A stretch of 34,590 nt of DNA from Planctomycetaceae bacterium (GTDB lineage: Bacteria; Planctomycetota; Planctomycetia; Planctomycetales; Planctomycetaceae). The translations under genes and the position numbers were made by a program. The notes under the pieces were generated by a model. It was not told the DNA's origin, did not search any database, and was given only the letters and a program-made list of their open reading frames with translations. Positions within the stretch are counted from its first letter, which is position 1. Each line of letters begins with the position of its first letter. The stretch spans positions 1 to 34,590 of the forward strand of contig WFTL01000066.1 of the NCBI GenBank assembly GCA_015485495.1, written 5' to 3'. Of the stretch, positions 21,890-28,698 are shown piece by piece.

Positions 21890-22351
21890 TCAGTCGTTCA
21901 GTTCGATGATCGCTTCGATTTCGACGGCGATGTTCCCGGGCAGAGATCCCATGCCCACAGCGCTGCGGGCGGCCCGTCCGTTTTCTCCCCAGATGTCCAC
22001 CATGAGATCACTGAAGCCGTTGATCACCTGCGGGTGATTTTGAAAATCGGGCGATGCATTGACCATGCCCAGCACTTTGACGATGCGGCGGACGCGGTCG
22101 AGGCTGCCAAGCTGTGCTCGCAGAGTGGCCAGCATCGTCAGCCCCACGGTGCGGGCGGCGGCGACACCCTGCTCTTCGGTCAGGTCGTCTCCCACACGTC
22201 CGGTGATCATCGAACCGTCCGGCAGCACGGGGCCATGGCCGGACACATAGGCCGTCGATCCGGTGATCAGCACCGGACTGTAGGTTCCTCCGGGGCCCGG
22301 AGGGTCGGGGAGCTGCAGTCCCAGTTCCGATACGCGTTCTTCGATACTCAT
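21890..22351 (-). CDS. RidA family protein
   Basis: A 153-residue RidA/YjgF-like protein. The family forms trimers; classical RidA hydrolyses reactive enamine/imine intermediates from amino-acid metabolism. Visible features are the YSPVLITGSTAYVSGHGPVLPDGS opening, GRVGDDLTEEQGVAAARTVGLTML, LDRVRRIVKVLGMVN and the final GSLPGNIAVEIEAIIEL. The arginine that binds the carboxylate in RidA proper is replaced: the GSLPGNIAVEIEAI segment lacks the usual C-terminal Arg-containing motif, which places it in a broader RidA subgroup. The ATG at 22351 fits the family start. It is divergent from floA across 413 bases. Confidence 0.87.
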   Translation of the reverse strand: MSIEERVSELGLQLPDPPGPGGTYSPVLITGSTAYVSGHGPVLPDGSMITGRVGDDLTEEQGVAAARTVGLTMLATLRAQLGSLDRVRRIVKVLGMVNASPDFQNHPQVINGFSDLMVDIWGENGRAARSAVGMGSLPGNIAVEIEAIIELND

Positions 22352-22764
22352 GGTCACGGCTTTCGCTGGATGTTTGAACAGATTCCCGGATGGTTCGTCT
22401 GTGCAGAATGTCGTCCGCACGTACAGATAACGACATCGGTGAAACAGTCGCTGCGGACGGCGGATTTCAGGATTCTTCTGATCCGCGGCGTTTCGGCGGC
22501 CGTTGTCGTGCAGCAGCGCCGCTGGCGGCCGGATCCTACCCGATCGCCACGAACGTTCAATTGACCGACGTGTCCGTCCGCGGCAGACGAGCCTGTCGGG
22601 CGATTGGCGGACGGGAGAATTGGTATCACACTGCGGGGTGGAAACCACTCACGCGATCGAATTCCGGAAAGAAAACAGGGACGCAGGCTTTGCACAGTCT
22701 GCCAACCGTCTTCTAAACTCGAAACTTCTGCCCGTTCAATCCGTCTGAACACCGGGATGGAACC
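22352..22764. other. Intergenic gap between divergent ridA-like and floA genes
   Basis: This 413-base divergent region should carry both promoters. A possible floA promoter is listed separately. No repeats, RNA genes or convincing small frames were seen. Confidence 0.4.
22690..22717 (+). promoter_or_regulatory. Weak candidate promoter for floA
   Basis: TTGCAC (22690-22695) and TCTAAA (22712-22717) are separated by 16 bases and end 47 bases before the floA start. The -35 match is poor and the -10 moderate, so this is tentative. Confidence 0.3.
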
Positions 22765-23748
22765 ATGCTGTCACTGAATCCGCTGCTGCTTTTGTCGGCC
22801 ATCGAACCGCTCCAGATACTGCTGTACGGCATCGTGGCGATCGTGGTGCTGGGCCTGCTGGTGTTTCTGGCCATGTTCGCCCCCGTGTTTCCTCTGTGGA
22901 TCCGCGCCCTGACATCGGGGGCTCTGATCGGGCCGCTGCAGCTTGTCGTGATGAAGCTGAAAAAGGTGCATCCCGGGGTGATCGTCGATTCCCGCATCAT
23001 GGCCGTGCAGGCGGGGCTGAAAGGGATTTCCACCAATGCCCTCGAATCGCATTATCTGGCCGGCGGCAACGTGCCGATCGTGGTGCGTGCCCTCGTGGCT
23101 GCTCAGAAAGCCGGCATCGATCTGGACTGGAACACGGCCGCTGCCATCGATCTGGCCGGACGGAATGTTCTGGAAGCGGTTCAGACCAGCGTGAAGACCA
23201 AGGTGATCGACTGTCCGGATCCGTCGCGACACGGGCGGCAGACGCTTGACGGTGTCGCCCGGGACGGCATTCAGCTGAAGGCCCGGGCCCGCGTGACCGT
23301 GCGGACGAATCTGAGCCAGCTCATTGGAGGGGCGACGGAAGAAACGATCATTGCCCGGGTGGGAGAAGGCATCGTCTCGGCGATCGGATCCTGTCAGACG
23401 CACAAGGAAGTGCTGGCCAACCCGGTGCTCATCGCAGAAGCCGTGCTGGCCAAGGGTCTGGACGCTCACACCGCCTACGAAATCGTTTCCATCGATATTG
23501 CCGATATCGATGTGGGAGACAACGTGGGGGCCCGGCTGCAGGCGGATCAGGCCGAAGCGGATGTCCGGATTGCCCGGGCCCGGGCCGAAGAGCGACGTGC
23601 TCGTGCGGTGGCCCAGGAACAGGAAATGCGCGCCCGCACTCAGGAACATCAGGCCGCCGTGGTCCTGGCCGAAGCGGAAATCCCCAAAGCGATGTCCGAA
23701 GCGTACCGTGCGGGAAATCTGAGGGCCATTGATCGGTCCCCGTCATAA
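22765..23748 (+). CDS. floA: Flotillin-like protein FloA
   Basis: A 327-residue membrane-associated scaffold protein of the FloA/YqfA family, which marks ordered lipid microdomains in bacteria. A hydrophobic N-terminal section (residues 15-55) is followed by the family core: [22 protein letters not shown], the [24 protein letters not shown] stretch, [15 protein letters not shown] and [21 protein letters not shown]. The C-terminal part (about 255-310) is a long charged Ala/Glu/Arg helix ([20 protein letters not shown]) expected to form a coiled coil. Length is typical. The start at 22765 gives the hydrophobic N-terminus of the family. NfeD, a frequent partner, is not adjacent. Confidence 0.95.
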
Positions 23749-24202: not shown

Positions 24203-24412
24203 ATGAACGACACGGTGCACATCGATCTGACGGATCACGAACGCGATCTTCTGCTGCGGGGCCTGAGGTTCGTGCGGAGATCTGTCATGCTGGAAACCCG
24301 CGACCGGTCCGCTCCGGATGAACTGCGCCGCAGCGGTCTGCTGGAAGAAATCCAGGATCTGACTCAGCGTCTGGAAGCCAGCGGACAGTCCGTGGAAACG
24401 ATTTCCTTCTGA
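24203..24412 (+). CDS. Small hypothetical protein
   Basis: A 69-residue protein that I do not recognise. It is soluble and predicted to be almost all helical, with the charged segments LTDHERDLLLRGLRFVRRS and LLEEIQDLTQRLEASG. There are no cysteines, signal peptide or membrane segments. A CCCGGG run just before the ATG could act only weakly as a ribosome binding site. It is the first gene after the predicted promoter and palindrome, and the OleA-type gene follows 107 bases later, so it may be the first gene of that run. Its composition matches the neighbours, which favours a real gene. Confidence 0.6.
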   Translation: MNDTVHIDLTDHERDLLLRGLRFVRRSVMLETRDRSAPDELRRSGLLEEIQDLTQRLEASGQSVETISF

Positions 24413-24451: not shown

Positions 24452-24519
24452 AGAATGCGTCCGTTTCGTTCGTCTGACATGTTTCGCACCGTGTGCGACC
24501 GACCGCGCCGTTACGTTCC

Positions 24520-25590
24520 ATGCGATATCACCATGTGTGTGTTGAAGCGGTTGTGCATCACCCCGCACCGCATGTGGTGACTTCGTCTGCAATCGAAGAA
24601 CGACTGGAACCGGTTTACACGCGACTGGGCCTGCCGGCCGGTCGGCTGGAACTGATGACCGGGATTCGGGAACGGCGGTTTTACGATCCCGGAACCCGCC
24701 CCGGTCAGATCAGCGTGCAGACGGTCCGCCTGGCGGTGGAGCGATCAGGGATCGCGCCGGACACCTTCGGTGCTCTGATTCACGGATCGGTGTGCCGTGA
24801 TCAGATGGAACCGGCCACGGCGGCCGGAGTCCATGCGGAATCCGGTCTGCCGGACGACTGTCTGGTGCTGGACATCAGCAATGCCTGTCTGGGACTGCTG
24901 AACGGCATGCTGCACATCGCCGACATGATCGAGCTGGGGCGGATTCAGGCCGGAATCGTTGTGGGAACAGAGACCGGGCGAACTCTTGTGGAAGGCACCA
25001 TCGACAGTCTGCTGAAGGATCCGGATCTGACGCGGCAGTCGATCAAACCGGCCTTCGCATCATTGACTGTGGGATCCGGATCCGCCGCAGTGGTGCTTTG
25101 CCACCGATCGCTCAGCCGGTCCGGATACCGGCTGCTGGGCGGATCGTTTCTGTCCGATTCGAGTGCTCATCGGCTGTGTGCCGGCGGCATCGACAGCGGA
25201 CAGCATGGGGACAGCCGGCCTCGCATGGAAACCGATTCCGAAGCCCTGCTGCACGCGGGAATTGCTCTGGCAGAACGAAACTGGGCGCGCACCCAGGACA
25301 TTCTGGGCTGGGCCGGAAAGCCGCCGCACCGGGTCTTCACGCACCAGGTGGGCCGGCAGCACCGAACGATGCTCATGGAACGTCTGCAGCTCGATCCGGC
25401 GATCGATTATCCGACGGTGGAACGTTTCGGAAACACGGGTGCGGCGGCTTTGCCCATGGCCCTGGCCATGGGGCTGGAAGACACGCCGCCCGATCCCGGA
25501 ACCCGCCTGGCACTTCTGGGAATCGGCAGCGGCCTGAATTCCGTGATGCTGGGAATCGAATGCGAAAACGGTACAACGTCTGATGAATGA
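24520..25590 (+). CDS. oleA: OleA-type thiolase (3-oxoacyl-ACP synthase III superfamily)
   Basis: A 356-residue condensing enzyme. The Cys-His-Asn triad of the FabH superfamily is present: Cys123 in SNACLG, His275 in THQVG and Asn305 in FGNTG. In addition, Glu97 in RDQMEPATA matches the glutamate that sets OleA apart. The distances Glu97-Cys123 (26) and His275-Asn305 (30) equal those recalled for Xanthomonas OleA (Glu117, Cys143, His285, Asn315). The ending LLGIGSGLNS is also OleA-like. OleA joins two fatty acyl-CoAs head to head into a beta-keto acid, the first step to long-chain olefins or ketones. No oleB, oleC or oleD lies nearby, so the end product is unknown. The ATG at 24520 is used. 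Ftr follows 69 bases later. Confidence 0.85.
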   Translation: MRYHHVCVEAVVHHPAPHVVTSSAIEERLEPVYTRLGLPAGRLELMTGIRERRFYDPGTRPGQISVQTVRLAVERSGIAPDTFGALIHGSVCRDQMEPATAAGVHAESGLPDDCLVLDISNACLGLLNGMLHIADMIELGRIQAGIVVGTETGRTLVEGTIDSLLKDPDLTRQSIKPAFASLTVGSGSAAVVLCHRSLSRSGYRLLGGSFLSDSSAHRLCAGGIDSGQHGDSRPRMETDSEALLHAGIALAERNWARTQDILGWAGKPPHRVFTHQVGRQHRTMLMERLQLDPAIDYPTVERFGNTGAAALPMALAMGLEDTPPDPGTRLALLGIGSGLNSVMLGIECENGTTSDE

Positions 25591-25659: not shown

Positions 25660-26574
25660 ATGACTGCGGCCGTTTCTCCATCAGCGGCGATCGACGATAC
25701 GTTCGCCGAGGCGTTTCCGATGGCGGCCACGCGGCTGATCATCACCGCGTGGGATCTCGACCTGGCGGCTCATGCCGCCATGGAATTCTGCGGAAACGCA
25801 TCCAGCGTGATCGGCTGCGATGCGGAGTGCGGCATCGAACAGTTTCTGACAGAATCGGACACTCCCGACGGGCGGCCGGGAATCGCCGTGCTGGCCTTCG
25901 CGTTCAGCCGTTCCGCTCTGGAAACGGCGGTCACGAACCGCGTGGGCCAGAATGTCCTGACCTGTCCCACAACGGCCTGTTATTCCGGACTGGCGGCCCG
26001 GGACCGGAAAGATCGGATCCGGGTGGGAGGTCGGCTGCGTTTTTTCGGCGACGGCTTTCAGAGTTCACGGATGATCGGGGCCACCCGGTACTGGCGGATT
26101 CCCGTCATGGACGGTGAATTTCTCTGCGAAGACGCGTTCGGGACCGTTCAGGGCGTCGGCGGCGGAAATCTGCTCATCTGCGGGCGATCTCAGTCCGAAG
26201 CCATTGCGGCTGCCCGTTGCGCCGTCCGGAACATCTCGGATCTTGAAGATGTCATCCTGCCGTTTCCGTCCGGCTTCGTACGCAGCGGATCGAAAGTCGG
26301 ATCGAAATACAGCCGGCTCAAAGCCAGTACAAGTCATCGCTGGTGTCCCACTCTGACGGCCCGCACCGACACGGCTCTGCAGGCAGGAGAAAACGCCGTT
26401 TATGAAATCGTCATCGATGGTCTGACGGAAACGGCCGTGGCCCGGGCCATGCGGGTCGGACGCGATGCGGCTGCGGGCTGTCCCGGCATTCTGCGGGTGT
26501 CCGCCGGGAACTACGGCGGACAGCTCGGACCGTATCACTTCCACCTGAAACGGCTGGAAGAACAGGAATCCTGA
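25660..26574 (+). CDS. ftr: Formylmethanofuran--tetrahydromethanopterin formyltransferase
   Basis: A 304-residue cytoplasmic enzyme that moves a formyl group between formyl-tetrahydromethanopterin and methanofuran. In methanogens it serves CO2 reduction; in methylotrophs and planctomycetes it serves formaldehyde oxidation, as part of the FhcABCD complex (subunit FhcD). The N-terminal IDDTFAEAFPMAATRLIITAWD, the CDAECGIE and TCPTTACYSG stretches and the C-terminal SAGNYGGQLGPYHFHL are strong family signatures, and length matches the usual 297-305. The ATG at 25660 places IDDTFAEAF where family members have it. Other H4MPT pathway genes (fae, mch, mtdB, fhcABC) are not in this window, so they must lie elsewhere if the pathway is complete. 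KdsB follows after 57 bases. Confidence 0.95.
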   Translation: MTAAVSPSAAIDDTFAEAFPMAATRLIITAWDLDLAAHAAMEFCGNASSVIGCDAECGIEQFLTESDTPDGRPGIAVLAFAFSRSALETAVTNRVGQNVLTCPTTACYSGLAARDRKDRIRVGGRLRFFGDGFQSSRMIGATRYWRIPVMDGEFLCEDAFGTVQGVGGGNLLICGRSQSEAIAAARCAVRNISDLEDVILPFPSGFVRSGSKVGSKYSRLKASTSHRWCPTLTARTDTALQAGENAVYEIVIDGLTETAVARAMRVGRDAAAGCPGILRVSAGNYGGQLGPYHFHLKRLEEQES

Positions 26575-26631: not shown

Positions 26632-27393
26632 GTGGGAGACGTGATTGCCATGATCCCGGCCCGCTATGCATCGTCGCGGCTGCCGGGAAAACCTCTGGCC
26701 CCCATACTGGGTCGTCCCATGATTCAGCGTGTGTGGGAACAGACGCGGACGGCCGCGTCGGTGACCCGGGTTGTCGTGGCGACCGATGACGAACGGATTG
26801 CCGCGGCGGTGAAGGCCTTCGGAGGCGATTTTGTGATGACATCACCCGACTGTGCCAGCGGCACCGATCGACTGGCCCAGGCAGCCGAATGTCTCGGCAC
26901 CGCAGCAGACGACATCATCGTCAACGTTCAGGGGGATCAGCCGTTCATCGATCCGCGTATGATCGATGAAACCGTGCGGCCGCTGATCGACGACCGCAGT
27001 CTGCCGATGGCCACTCTGATCCATCCCATTCACCGCCCGGAAGATCTCCAGGATCCGGGCGTCGTCAAGGCGGTGATCGATCGACAGGGCAACGGTCTGT
27101 ACTTTTCCCGTTCCCTCATTCCGGCGCCCCACAACAGCGTGGAACACACGGTGTACGAACACGTGGGACTGTATGTATACCGCCGCGATTTTCTGACGAC
27201 GCTTGCGGGACTGCCGCCGACCATTCTGGAACAGGTCGAAGGTCTGGAACAGCTGCGGGTTCTGGAACATGGGTACCGTCTGCGGTGCGTGATCACGACC
27301 TGCCAGGACAGCGAACTGGCCGGTTTCAGCATCGACACGGCCGATGATCTGCAGCGAGGCGAAATGATGCTGAAACAGCGGGGCCGGACATAG
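26632..27393 (+). CDS. kdsB: 3-deoxy-manno-octulosonate cytidylyltransferase
   Basis: A 253-residue enzyme that activates Kdo with CTP to CMP-Kdo for lipopolysaccharide assembly. The nucleotidyltransferase loop is IPARYASSRLPGKPL (residues 8-22). The VVATDDERI, SGTDRLAQA, NVQGDQPFI and FSRSLIP segments and the EHVGLYVYRRDFL and LEQVEGLEQLRVLEHGYRL stretches are all family landmarks, and length is normal. The start is GTG at 26632 with GGAG eight bases upstream; no ATG in frame fits. It shows that the organism makes Kdo and therefore probably has an outer membrane with lipid A. It sits in a closely spaced run with ftr before it and an unknown gene 57 bases after. Confidence 0.96.
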   Translation: MGDVIAMIPARYASSRLPGKPLAPILGRPMIQRVWEQTRTAASVTRVVVATDDERIAAAVKAFGGDFVMTSPDCASGTDRLAQAAECLGTAADDIIVNVQGDQPFIDPRMIDETVRPLIDDRSLPMATLIHPIHRPEDLQDPGVVKAVIDRQGNGLYFSRSLIPAPHNSVEHTVYEHVGLYVYRRDFLTTLAGLPPTILEQVEGLEQLRVLEHGYRLRCVITTCQDSELAGFSIDTADDLQRGEMMLKQRGRT

Positions 27394-27450: not shown

Positions 27451-28698
27451 ATGGGCACATTTTTCCCGATTCATGCCGATGTCATTGCCGACCTGGAACA
27501 GGCACTGTCGCAGGAAACCCGCGATCACCTGAAGCAGGCGGCCGATCGGATCGTCTCTGCCAAAGAAGCCGGCGGTCGGGTCGTGATTGTAACCGGCAGC
27601 GGTCCGAATCTGCACGAAGGCGTCACGACGCTCATTGCGGAACTCATCGACAAAGGCATTGTGGACGGTGTGACGACCAGTTCGGCCGTCGTGGCGCACG
27701 AGATGGCGGGGACTCTGGACCGCGTTCGCCGGGTCGACGGGACGCAATGCGGATTTTCCCCGGATGAACTGCCGCTGGGCGGTCATTTCGAACTGTCGCT
27801 GCTGGATGAACAGCAGATGGAAACTCTCGCCCGGGAAATGCCTCTGGATCGCCCGCTGCTGCAGCGTCTGCGGGAGACGGAAGGCGACGAAATCATCAAG
27901 GCGGCCGGGAACATGGCCTACCCGCTGGGTTACCGCACGGAACGGATTGCTGTGGAAGTGCTGCAGCGGGCGAAAGTTGAAGGGCGTCCGTTCGAAGAAG
28001 TGGCGGGACGGGGCGCCGATCCGCGGACGATGATCGGAGCCGGCTGGCGCGCCGGTGTTCCGGTTCTCGTCACGATTCCTCAGCTGGTCGGCGGTGGCGG
28101 CGTCGGACTGGCCATCGGCGACAGTCTGTCGATTACCGAACGCGCCGCCCGCATCGCCCGCATGATGGCAGAAGCCGATGTGATCGTGGAATCGGCCGTG
28201 GCTCTGACTCAGGAAATCCACGACGGGCCGTTCGAAACATTCACCGGACATGGCATCTGGGCGGCCCGCGATGGCCATCCCGTGTATTCGCTGCGCGACA
28301 AAACCCTCATTCGCTTCGATCTGGATCCCGGTCTGCAGCGTGTGTGGGAAATCGAACGCCGTTCGTCGACCGTTCAGGAAGCCATCAATCGAGGCCTACC
28401 GAAAACGAAGCTGCTGAAGGTTCCGTTTCGGATGGAAATGTCAGGATTTGCCCGGCTGCCGGGCAGTCTTCCGGTGGTGGGCGACATCGGCGTGCTGTGG
28501 CCGATTCTCGCAGCCGACGTGGCCCGGCGGCTGCAGATCGACCTGGAATTCCTTCCCTGTCCTCAGCAGACCGAAGCCGGCCGGCAGATGCGCGAATCCA
28601 TCGTCCGCAACGTCGGGTTTCTCTGCCGCGACACGATGCTGAATCTCTCTGATTCCCGGCGAGCACCGGACATTTCCTCCCCGGCAGCCTCCTGCTGA
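27451..28698 (+). CDS. Unrecognised protein with a deoxyhypusine-synthase-like segment
   Basis: A 415-residue cytoplasmic protein that I cannot assign. The N-terminal third begins with a Rossmann-like strand and turn, VVIVTGSGPN (residues 44-53), then LIAELIDKGIVDGVTTSSAV with VVAHEM, which resembles the segment of deoxyhypusine synthase where the NAD site starts (LI..LI..G.ID...TT.A..VHD). The catalytic lysine motif of that enzyme is not seen. The middle part is rich in Gly and Val (PQLVGGGGVGLAIGDSLSI, about 208-226), followed by ADVIVESAVALTQEIHDGPFETFTGHG. It has no signal peptide. It closes a rightward run with kdsB, and GGAG lies upstream of the ATG. It might be an NAD- or nucleotide-dependent enzyme; this is inference only. 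Confidence 0.8.
   Translation: MGTFFPIHADVIADLEQALSQETRDHLKQAADRIVSAKEAGGRVVIVTGSGPNLHEGVTTLIAELIDKGIVDGVTTSSAVVAHEMAGTLDRVRRVDGTQCGFSPDELPLGGHFELSLLDEQQMETLAREMPLDRPLLQRLRETEGDEIIKAAGNMAYPLGYRTERIAVEVLQRAKVEGRPFEEVAGRGADPRTMIGAGWRAGVPVLVTIPQLVGGGGVGLAIGDSLSITERAARIARMMAEADVIVESAVALTQEIHDGPFETFTGHGIWAARDGHPVYSLRDKTLIRFDLDPGLQRVWEIERRSSTVQEAINRGLPKTKLLKVPFRMEMSGFARLPGSLPVVGDIGVLWPILAADVARRLQIDLEFLPCPQQTEAGRQMRESIVRNVGFLCRDTMLNLSDSRRAPDISSPAASC

Follow-up and report, generated by a model that had tools for sequence, protein, structure and literature searches.

Ole genes are already known from planctomycetes. The phylum is listed among those that carry them (PMC7158056, in the part available), and oleC has been recorded in planctomycete MAGs, as excerpted from PMC10176705. 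According to the accessible text of PMC3098273, ole genes are often linked to FAS/PKS clusters and can reside elsewhere in the genome. A survey of olefin genes dropped OleA hits that had no oleBCD within 5 kb, and gives the pattern EPxx[AS]x(14,18)DxxNACL for OleA, in the sections of it at hand (PMC7158056). In the enzyme, Glu117, with a proline next to it, is described as a base supplied across the dimer (PMC7064751, available portion).

The window, by which we mean the whole stretch of DNA analysed here (34,590 bases), is contig C66 of a planctomycete genome of 4.67 Mb that is 98% complete and comprises 180 contigs. It encodes, at 24520..25590 on the forward strand, a protein of 356 residues that is very probably the OleA of an oleABCD olefin pathway whose genes are all present but scattered. 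With a mechanical GTG start the open reading frame covers 24493-25590; the ATG at 24520, already chosen in an earlier reading of the letters alone (hereafter the sequence-only reading), agrees with the starts of relatives. The protein scores 386.9 bits against the equivalog NCBIfam model PRK09258, which we take to cover OleA, about 100 bits over its cut-off of 285. FabH-type NCBIfam models reach at most 81 bits, and the FabH model TIGR00747 gives 69.8 bits against a cut-off of 292.1. The best PDB chains are 3s21 and 3row (E 2e-59, about 205 bits), labelled 3-oxoacyl-[ACP] synthase III in the PDB table and presumably the OleA of Xanthomonas campestris; in the same search the top FabH and the PQS enzyme score 50 and 38 bits. 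In a tree of 46 chosen rows, with an unsettled bootstrap, 43 OleA rows separate from three FabH-type rows at 100/100 (PqsD is absent from this tree), and the window protein falls outside FabH, within an 11-row clade of its family (100/100). Model scores, PDB scores and the tree together rule out FabH proper, the placement that the sequence-only reading had named as a refutation, and agree with the OleA-type identity put forward there. The protein can thus be classed, by its sequence, as an OleA-type enzyme of an ordinary kind, and it is the single OleA above cut-off in its genome. Among the best 80 of 534 relatives, the closest named OleAs come from planctomycete MAGs and include a record labelled Candidatus Kuenenia (L112, 75%), one of Fuerstiella sp. 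(L116, 74%) and Planctomycetaceae bacteria.

Aligned to the solved OleA chain, the protein retains Glu97 (codon 24808..24810), the equivalent of OleA Glu117, together with the predicted catalytic nucleophile Cys123 (24886..24888) and the predicted catalytic His275 (25342..25344) and Asn305 (25432..25434), all on the forward strand. A proline follows the glutamate (E97-P98), and the published pattern is matched by EPATA, 16 residues and DISNACL. All four residues are invariant in the 17 aligned OleAs, drawn from two planctomycete lineages, so that the Cys-His-Asn triad and the OleA-specific glutamate recognized earlier are borne out. The spacings had also been held to equal those of the Xanthomonas enzyme. 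This stands for Glu-Cys (26) and His-Asn (30), but Cys-His, at 152, is 10 longer than in the solved chain, owing to insertions of 1 and 9 residues.

None of the window's open reading frames belongs to the oleB, oleC or oleD families, as the sequence-only reading had noted; the genome's strong matches, one for each gene, lie on three other contigs. The oleC candidate (C29:24129-25799) scores 675 bits against PRK09274 (cut-off 478), followed among the NCBIfam models by olefin beta-lactone synthetases (589 and 513 bits). The oleD candidate (C65:39203-40186, E 2.3e-155) scores best, at 385 and 375 bits, against OleD-type 2-alkyl-3-oxoalkanoate reductases. Neither protein reaches the strict cut-off that NCBIfam sets for its olefin-specific models (OleC 589 of 900 bits, OleD 385 of 580). 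The oleB candidate (C130:94241-95086) matches a profile of nine cluster-encoded OleBs at E 6.8e-93, and its Asp101 and His261, which we take to be the catalytic residues, are invariant in 34 of 34 rows. A PDB search with this OleC at E 1e-30 returned no chain; the best chains for OleB are alpha/beta hydrolases and haloalkane dehalogenases, and the best for OleD is a sterol-4-alpha-carboxylate 3-dehydrogenase, and the PDB therefore neither backs nor opposes the naming of the three proteins. With oleB, oleC and oleD in the same genome, an orphan OleA is ruled out. Two alternatives had been raised from the sequence, that the partners lie elsewhere or that the enzyme serves a different pathway, and the first is the better one, given the matches on C130, C29 and C65 and the history that they share with this type of OleA.

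The OleB candidate matched no OleB-specific NCBIfam model, and its top NCBIfam matches, under their cut-offs, are named haloalkane dehalogenase. Clusters of oleACD without oleB make beta-lactones, according to the part of PMC7064751 available, and it could be argued that oleA, oleC and oleD do so here as well, the OleB homologue being an unrelated hydrolase of the haloalkane dehalogenase type. We regard this as very improbable. The name is non-discriminating, because a cluster-encoded OleB (L081) matches the same models. Moreover, the OleB tree has two clades, each at 100/99, and the candidate shares its clade, with the other scattered OleBs, with those of three Nitrospinota/Nitrospirota oleABCD clusters, where oleB lies between the oleA and oleC genes. 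It also co-occurs with OleA, OleC and OleD.

Across 59 planctomycete genomes, the window's own included, all four ole genes are present in 49, none in 5, and a partial or divergent set in 5. This tally was made by eye and hand at thresholds of E 1e-40 (OleA), 1e-50 (OleB), 1e-60 (OleC) and 1e-85 (OleD), at which the five genomes without any ole gene (G014, G041, G045, G048 and G052) have weaker paralogues only. For the co-occurrence of OleA and OleC a Fisher test without correction for relatedness gives p 2.4e-5, a statistic that overstates independence because the genomes are related. At the same thresholds G023 is without OleA only, G022 without OleB only, G021 without OleC only, and G016 without both OleA and OleD, while G044 is divergent. 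Genomes with OleA and one partner not found (G021, G022) or with partners and no OleA (G016, G023) would suit an enzyme that acts alone or with other proteins and delivers a beta-keto acid or ketone to a different pathway, the oleB, oleC and oleD homologues doing other things; the lack of oleBCD adjoining oleA would suit it too. However, the genomes with a partial set are draft assemblies in 90 to 1190 contigs, 49 of the 59 genomes have all four genes and 5 have none, and the same two lineages recur in the four proteins. No support was found for this proposal of the sequence-only reading, which we consider quite improbable.

The descent of the four proteins points to a shared history. Besides the OleA tree, trees were made from 34 OleB, 32 OleC and 23 OleD rows, likewise chosen, those of OleC and OleD being quick ones without bootstrap. 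The four trees split broadly alike, into a PUFA-synthase-linked (pfa-type) lineage and the mostly scattered lineage of the window. Families f2 and f3 belong to the former, as do some members of the window's own family. For OleA the pfa type is grouped at 100/93 and the scattered planctomycete rows at 73/92, and the Xanthomonas protein, on a long branch, falls among Nitrospinota/Nitrospirota rows. In the trees of OleC and OleD the pfa-type rows fall together (81 and 99), and the scattered rows fall with the same three Nitrospinota/Nitrospirota clusters as in the OleB tree (93 and 99). The scattered rows form no single clean clade there, G039 joining a Nitrospirota cluster (84 and 86), and the OleC of G044 lies outside both groups. 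Three members of the window's family (G003, G034 and G035) have a pfa-type OleA and an unlinked oleB, yet their OleB is of the pfa type, which argues that the match between OleA and OleB follows lineage and not linkage. Because the four trees split alike and the B, C and D proteins group with those of clustered oleABCD genes, the scattered genes most likely represent one co-inherited olefin pathway.

The reactions of this putative pathway are modelled on those described for known Ole pathways. OleA would join two activated fatty acyl groups head to head into a 2-alkyl-3-ketoacid in a non-decarboxylative Claisen reaction, which the OleD on C65 would reduce to a beta-hydroxy acid. The OleC on C29 would close this to a beta-lactone, and the OleB on C130 would decarboxylate the lactone to a long-chain olefin that may end in the membrane. 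What the analysis shows is that the proteins belong to the Ole families, that the active-site residues of OleA are intact and key residues of OleB conserved, that the four genes co-occur and have broadly congruent descent, and that no PfaA-type PUFA synthase was found. At E 1e-100, a PfaA-type PUFA synthase has no match in the window's genome (G000) or in the other scattered-OleA family genomes among the 59, and one is matched in all five pfa-type family members. Since no such synthase was found in the genome, ordinary fatty acids are the likely substrates, and the products are likely to be mono-olefins of about C27-C33 made from them, not a C31:9 polyene.

The four genes do not form one cluster in the window's genome, where each lies on its own contig. 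This scattering is not merely an assembly artefact, because oleA and oleC are far apart, by at least 0.58 Mb, in four single-contig relatives (G006, G009, G015 and G020), in three of which oleD adjoins oleC. Nor is it universal in the lineage: oleA, oleD and oleC lie within 11 kb in G040, of family f5, and oleD follows oleA in locus L149. As a separate observation, two f5 loci (L069:4942-15733 and L094) contain oleC and oleD together with a ketoacyl synthase, an ACP, an enoyl-ACP-reductase-type SDR and two FAD amine-oxidase-type genes (Pfam assignments for L069). In L069 oleA is close by, and the f5 set is possibly a lipid cluster of its own.

Upstream of oleA lies a conserved neighbour, floA, which encodes a flotillin-like protein (22765..23748, forward strand; PF12127, 429 bits). 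Of the 122 family genomes that could be evaluated, at least 75 have it upstream of oleA, on the same strand and within 1.5 kb; this order is seen in 30 of the 49 genera with scattered OleA, and the link is real as gene order. In the other 47 genomes floA is elsewhere on the same contig (five) or on another contig (the rest); many of these 47 are drafts, in which a contig break is possible. The count was compiled by hand from coordinates: 136 genomes with a scattered-type OleA were entered from 170 family genomes searched, and 14 without a floA row were set aside. The figure of 75 is a lower bound, because only the best floA match was used, G142 was entered with one of its two OleAs, and G024 was scored as unlinked even though floA adjoins the N-terminal piece of its OleA, which is broken across two contigs. 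On the far side of floA in the window, a RidA/YjgF-type gene (21890-22648, opposite strand; Pfam on the window copy only) adjoins it, and a gene of the same BLAST family (L045:8867-9337) stands next to the unlinked oleC on C29.

Directly 5' of oleA is a small conserved gene (24203..24412, forward strand) encoding 69 residues, recognized by a profile. Its family is of about 67 residues with the motif LLRGLRyVRSS, and AlphaFold2 predicts a two-helix hairpin (mean pLDDT 82, pTM 0.65). Searches with the profile gave nothing in the PDB at E 1 or in NCBIfam, and in Pfam single matches at chance level only (E 0.06-0.07). The gene is present in 28 of 30 floA-linked loci, a set in which two genomes are counted twice, and in 40 of 109 loci scanned, always 9-567 bases 5' of oleA. 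The 109-locus scan did not find it in L056, L057 and L146, nor in four loci (L112, L113, L114 and L151) that encode OleAs sharing 71-75% identity with that of the window. Weak remnants only, with internal stops, occur in L056 and L057 (E 5.5e-4 and 3.6e-4), where the gap between floA and oleA is shortened. Within the 59-genome set the small protein occurs in 33 of 37 family genomes (two of them weak remnants) and in none of the 22 outside. Among the 29 family genomes with a scattered OleA, by a tally made by eye, the gene is directly 5' of oleA in 22; of the other seven, a weak remnant is there in G001 and G002, the gene is beside floA and not oleA in G008 and G019, it lies elsewhere in G033, and it was not found in G018 and G021. 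It is also present away from oleA in five pfa-type genomes (G003, G026, G027, G034 and G035) and in G014, where the search for OleA gave nothing better than 1e-8. The small protein thus appears to be family-wide and not a dedicated OleA subunit; the role of a dedicated OleA partner is weakened by these same genomes.

One tentative interpretation is that the olefin pathway is wired to the flotillin system through a conserved unit of floA, the gene of the small hairpin protein and oleA, with head-to-head hydrocarbons made at, or serving as the structural lipid of, flotillin-organised membrane microdomains, and with genes at other places in the genome providing the remaining three enzymes. We consider this unlikely as it stands: a strict partnership is opposed by the small protein occurring away from oleA in six relatives and by the 47 of 122 genomes without floA-oleA adjacency. 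In the literature searched, no paper on a flotillin-planctomycete or OleA-flotillin-olefin link was found by title or abstract start. The conserved order of floA, small protein and oleA offers a way to test for a connection between flotillins and hydrocarbon lipids in bacteria.

Downstream, the sequence-only reading had placed ftr and kdsB beside oleA, and both are there: ftr (25660..26574), for a formylmethanofuran-tetrahydromethanopterin formyltransferase (TIGR03119, 389.9 bits), and kdsB (26632..27393), for a 3-deoxy-manno-octulosonate cytidylyltransferase (TIGR00466, 218.5 bits), for which no evidence of a link emerged. The three genes share the forward strand with short gaps, and with mechanical starts ftr overlaps the stop of oleA by 4 bp in L056 and by 1 bp in L057. 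This might suggest a functional tie of oleA to C1 transfer and KDO, which we find scarcely credible, as ftr adjoins oleA in only 3 of 16 family loci read (the window, L056 and L057), all of the window's genus. A link between ftr and oleA beyond this genus-level neighbourhood is therefore disfavoured, and the company of ftr and kdsB is uninformative for the same reason; floA and the small protein are the widely conserved neighbours instead. The gene 3' of kdsB (27451-28698, 415 residues) has a weak NCBIfam match only (GSU2086 family, 27 bits against a cut-off of 250) and no Pfam match.

The arrangement described here is mildly new. Neither family-wide scattering of ole genes nor the floA link was found in the literature searched, a body that does not include the main 2010 ole survey (Sukovich et al.). 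Under a 5-kb rule a scattered pathway would be missed or misread as an orphan OleA, so that surveys demanding oleBCD near OleA would miss the scattered type in this planctomycete family, and olefin potential there may be undercounted.

Set against known systems, the putative pathway would share with the Actinobacteria oleACD beta-lactone clusters (PMC7064751, in the part available) the chemistry of OleA, OleC and OleD; those clusters are without oleB, whereas the OleB encoded in the window's genome belongs to the cluster-associated clade. Compared with X. campestris OleA (3s21, 3row), the window protein belongs to the same family, aligns over its full length and has the same Glu/Cys/His/Asn set, but the Cys-His spacing is 10 shorter in the Xanthomonas enzyme, a long branch separates the two, and the window oleA, unlike its counterpart, lies away from oleBCD. 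The pfa-type oleABCD genes of other planctomycetes (L070-L081 and L083) encode the same four enzymes in the same class and partly in the same family. They form a separate lineage, contiguous in 10 of 13 loci and with an adjoining PUFA-synthase-type gene in 9 of 13, and their OleAs are 38-44% identical to that of the window (six aligned). The Nitrospinota/Nitrospirota clusters (L161, L167 and L181) have OleAs of about 50% identity, and the scattered-type OleB, OleC and OleD group with theirs; in those clusters the four ole genes are contiguous, whereas in the window's genome they are spread over four contigs.
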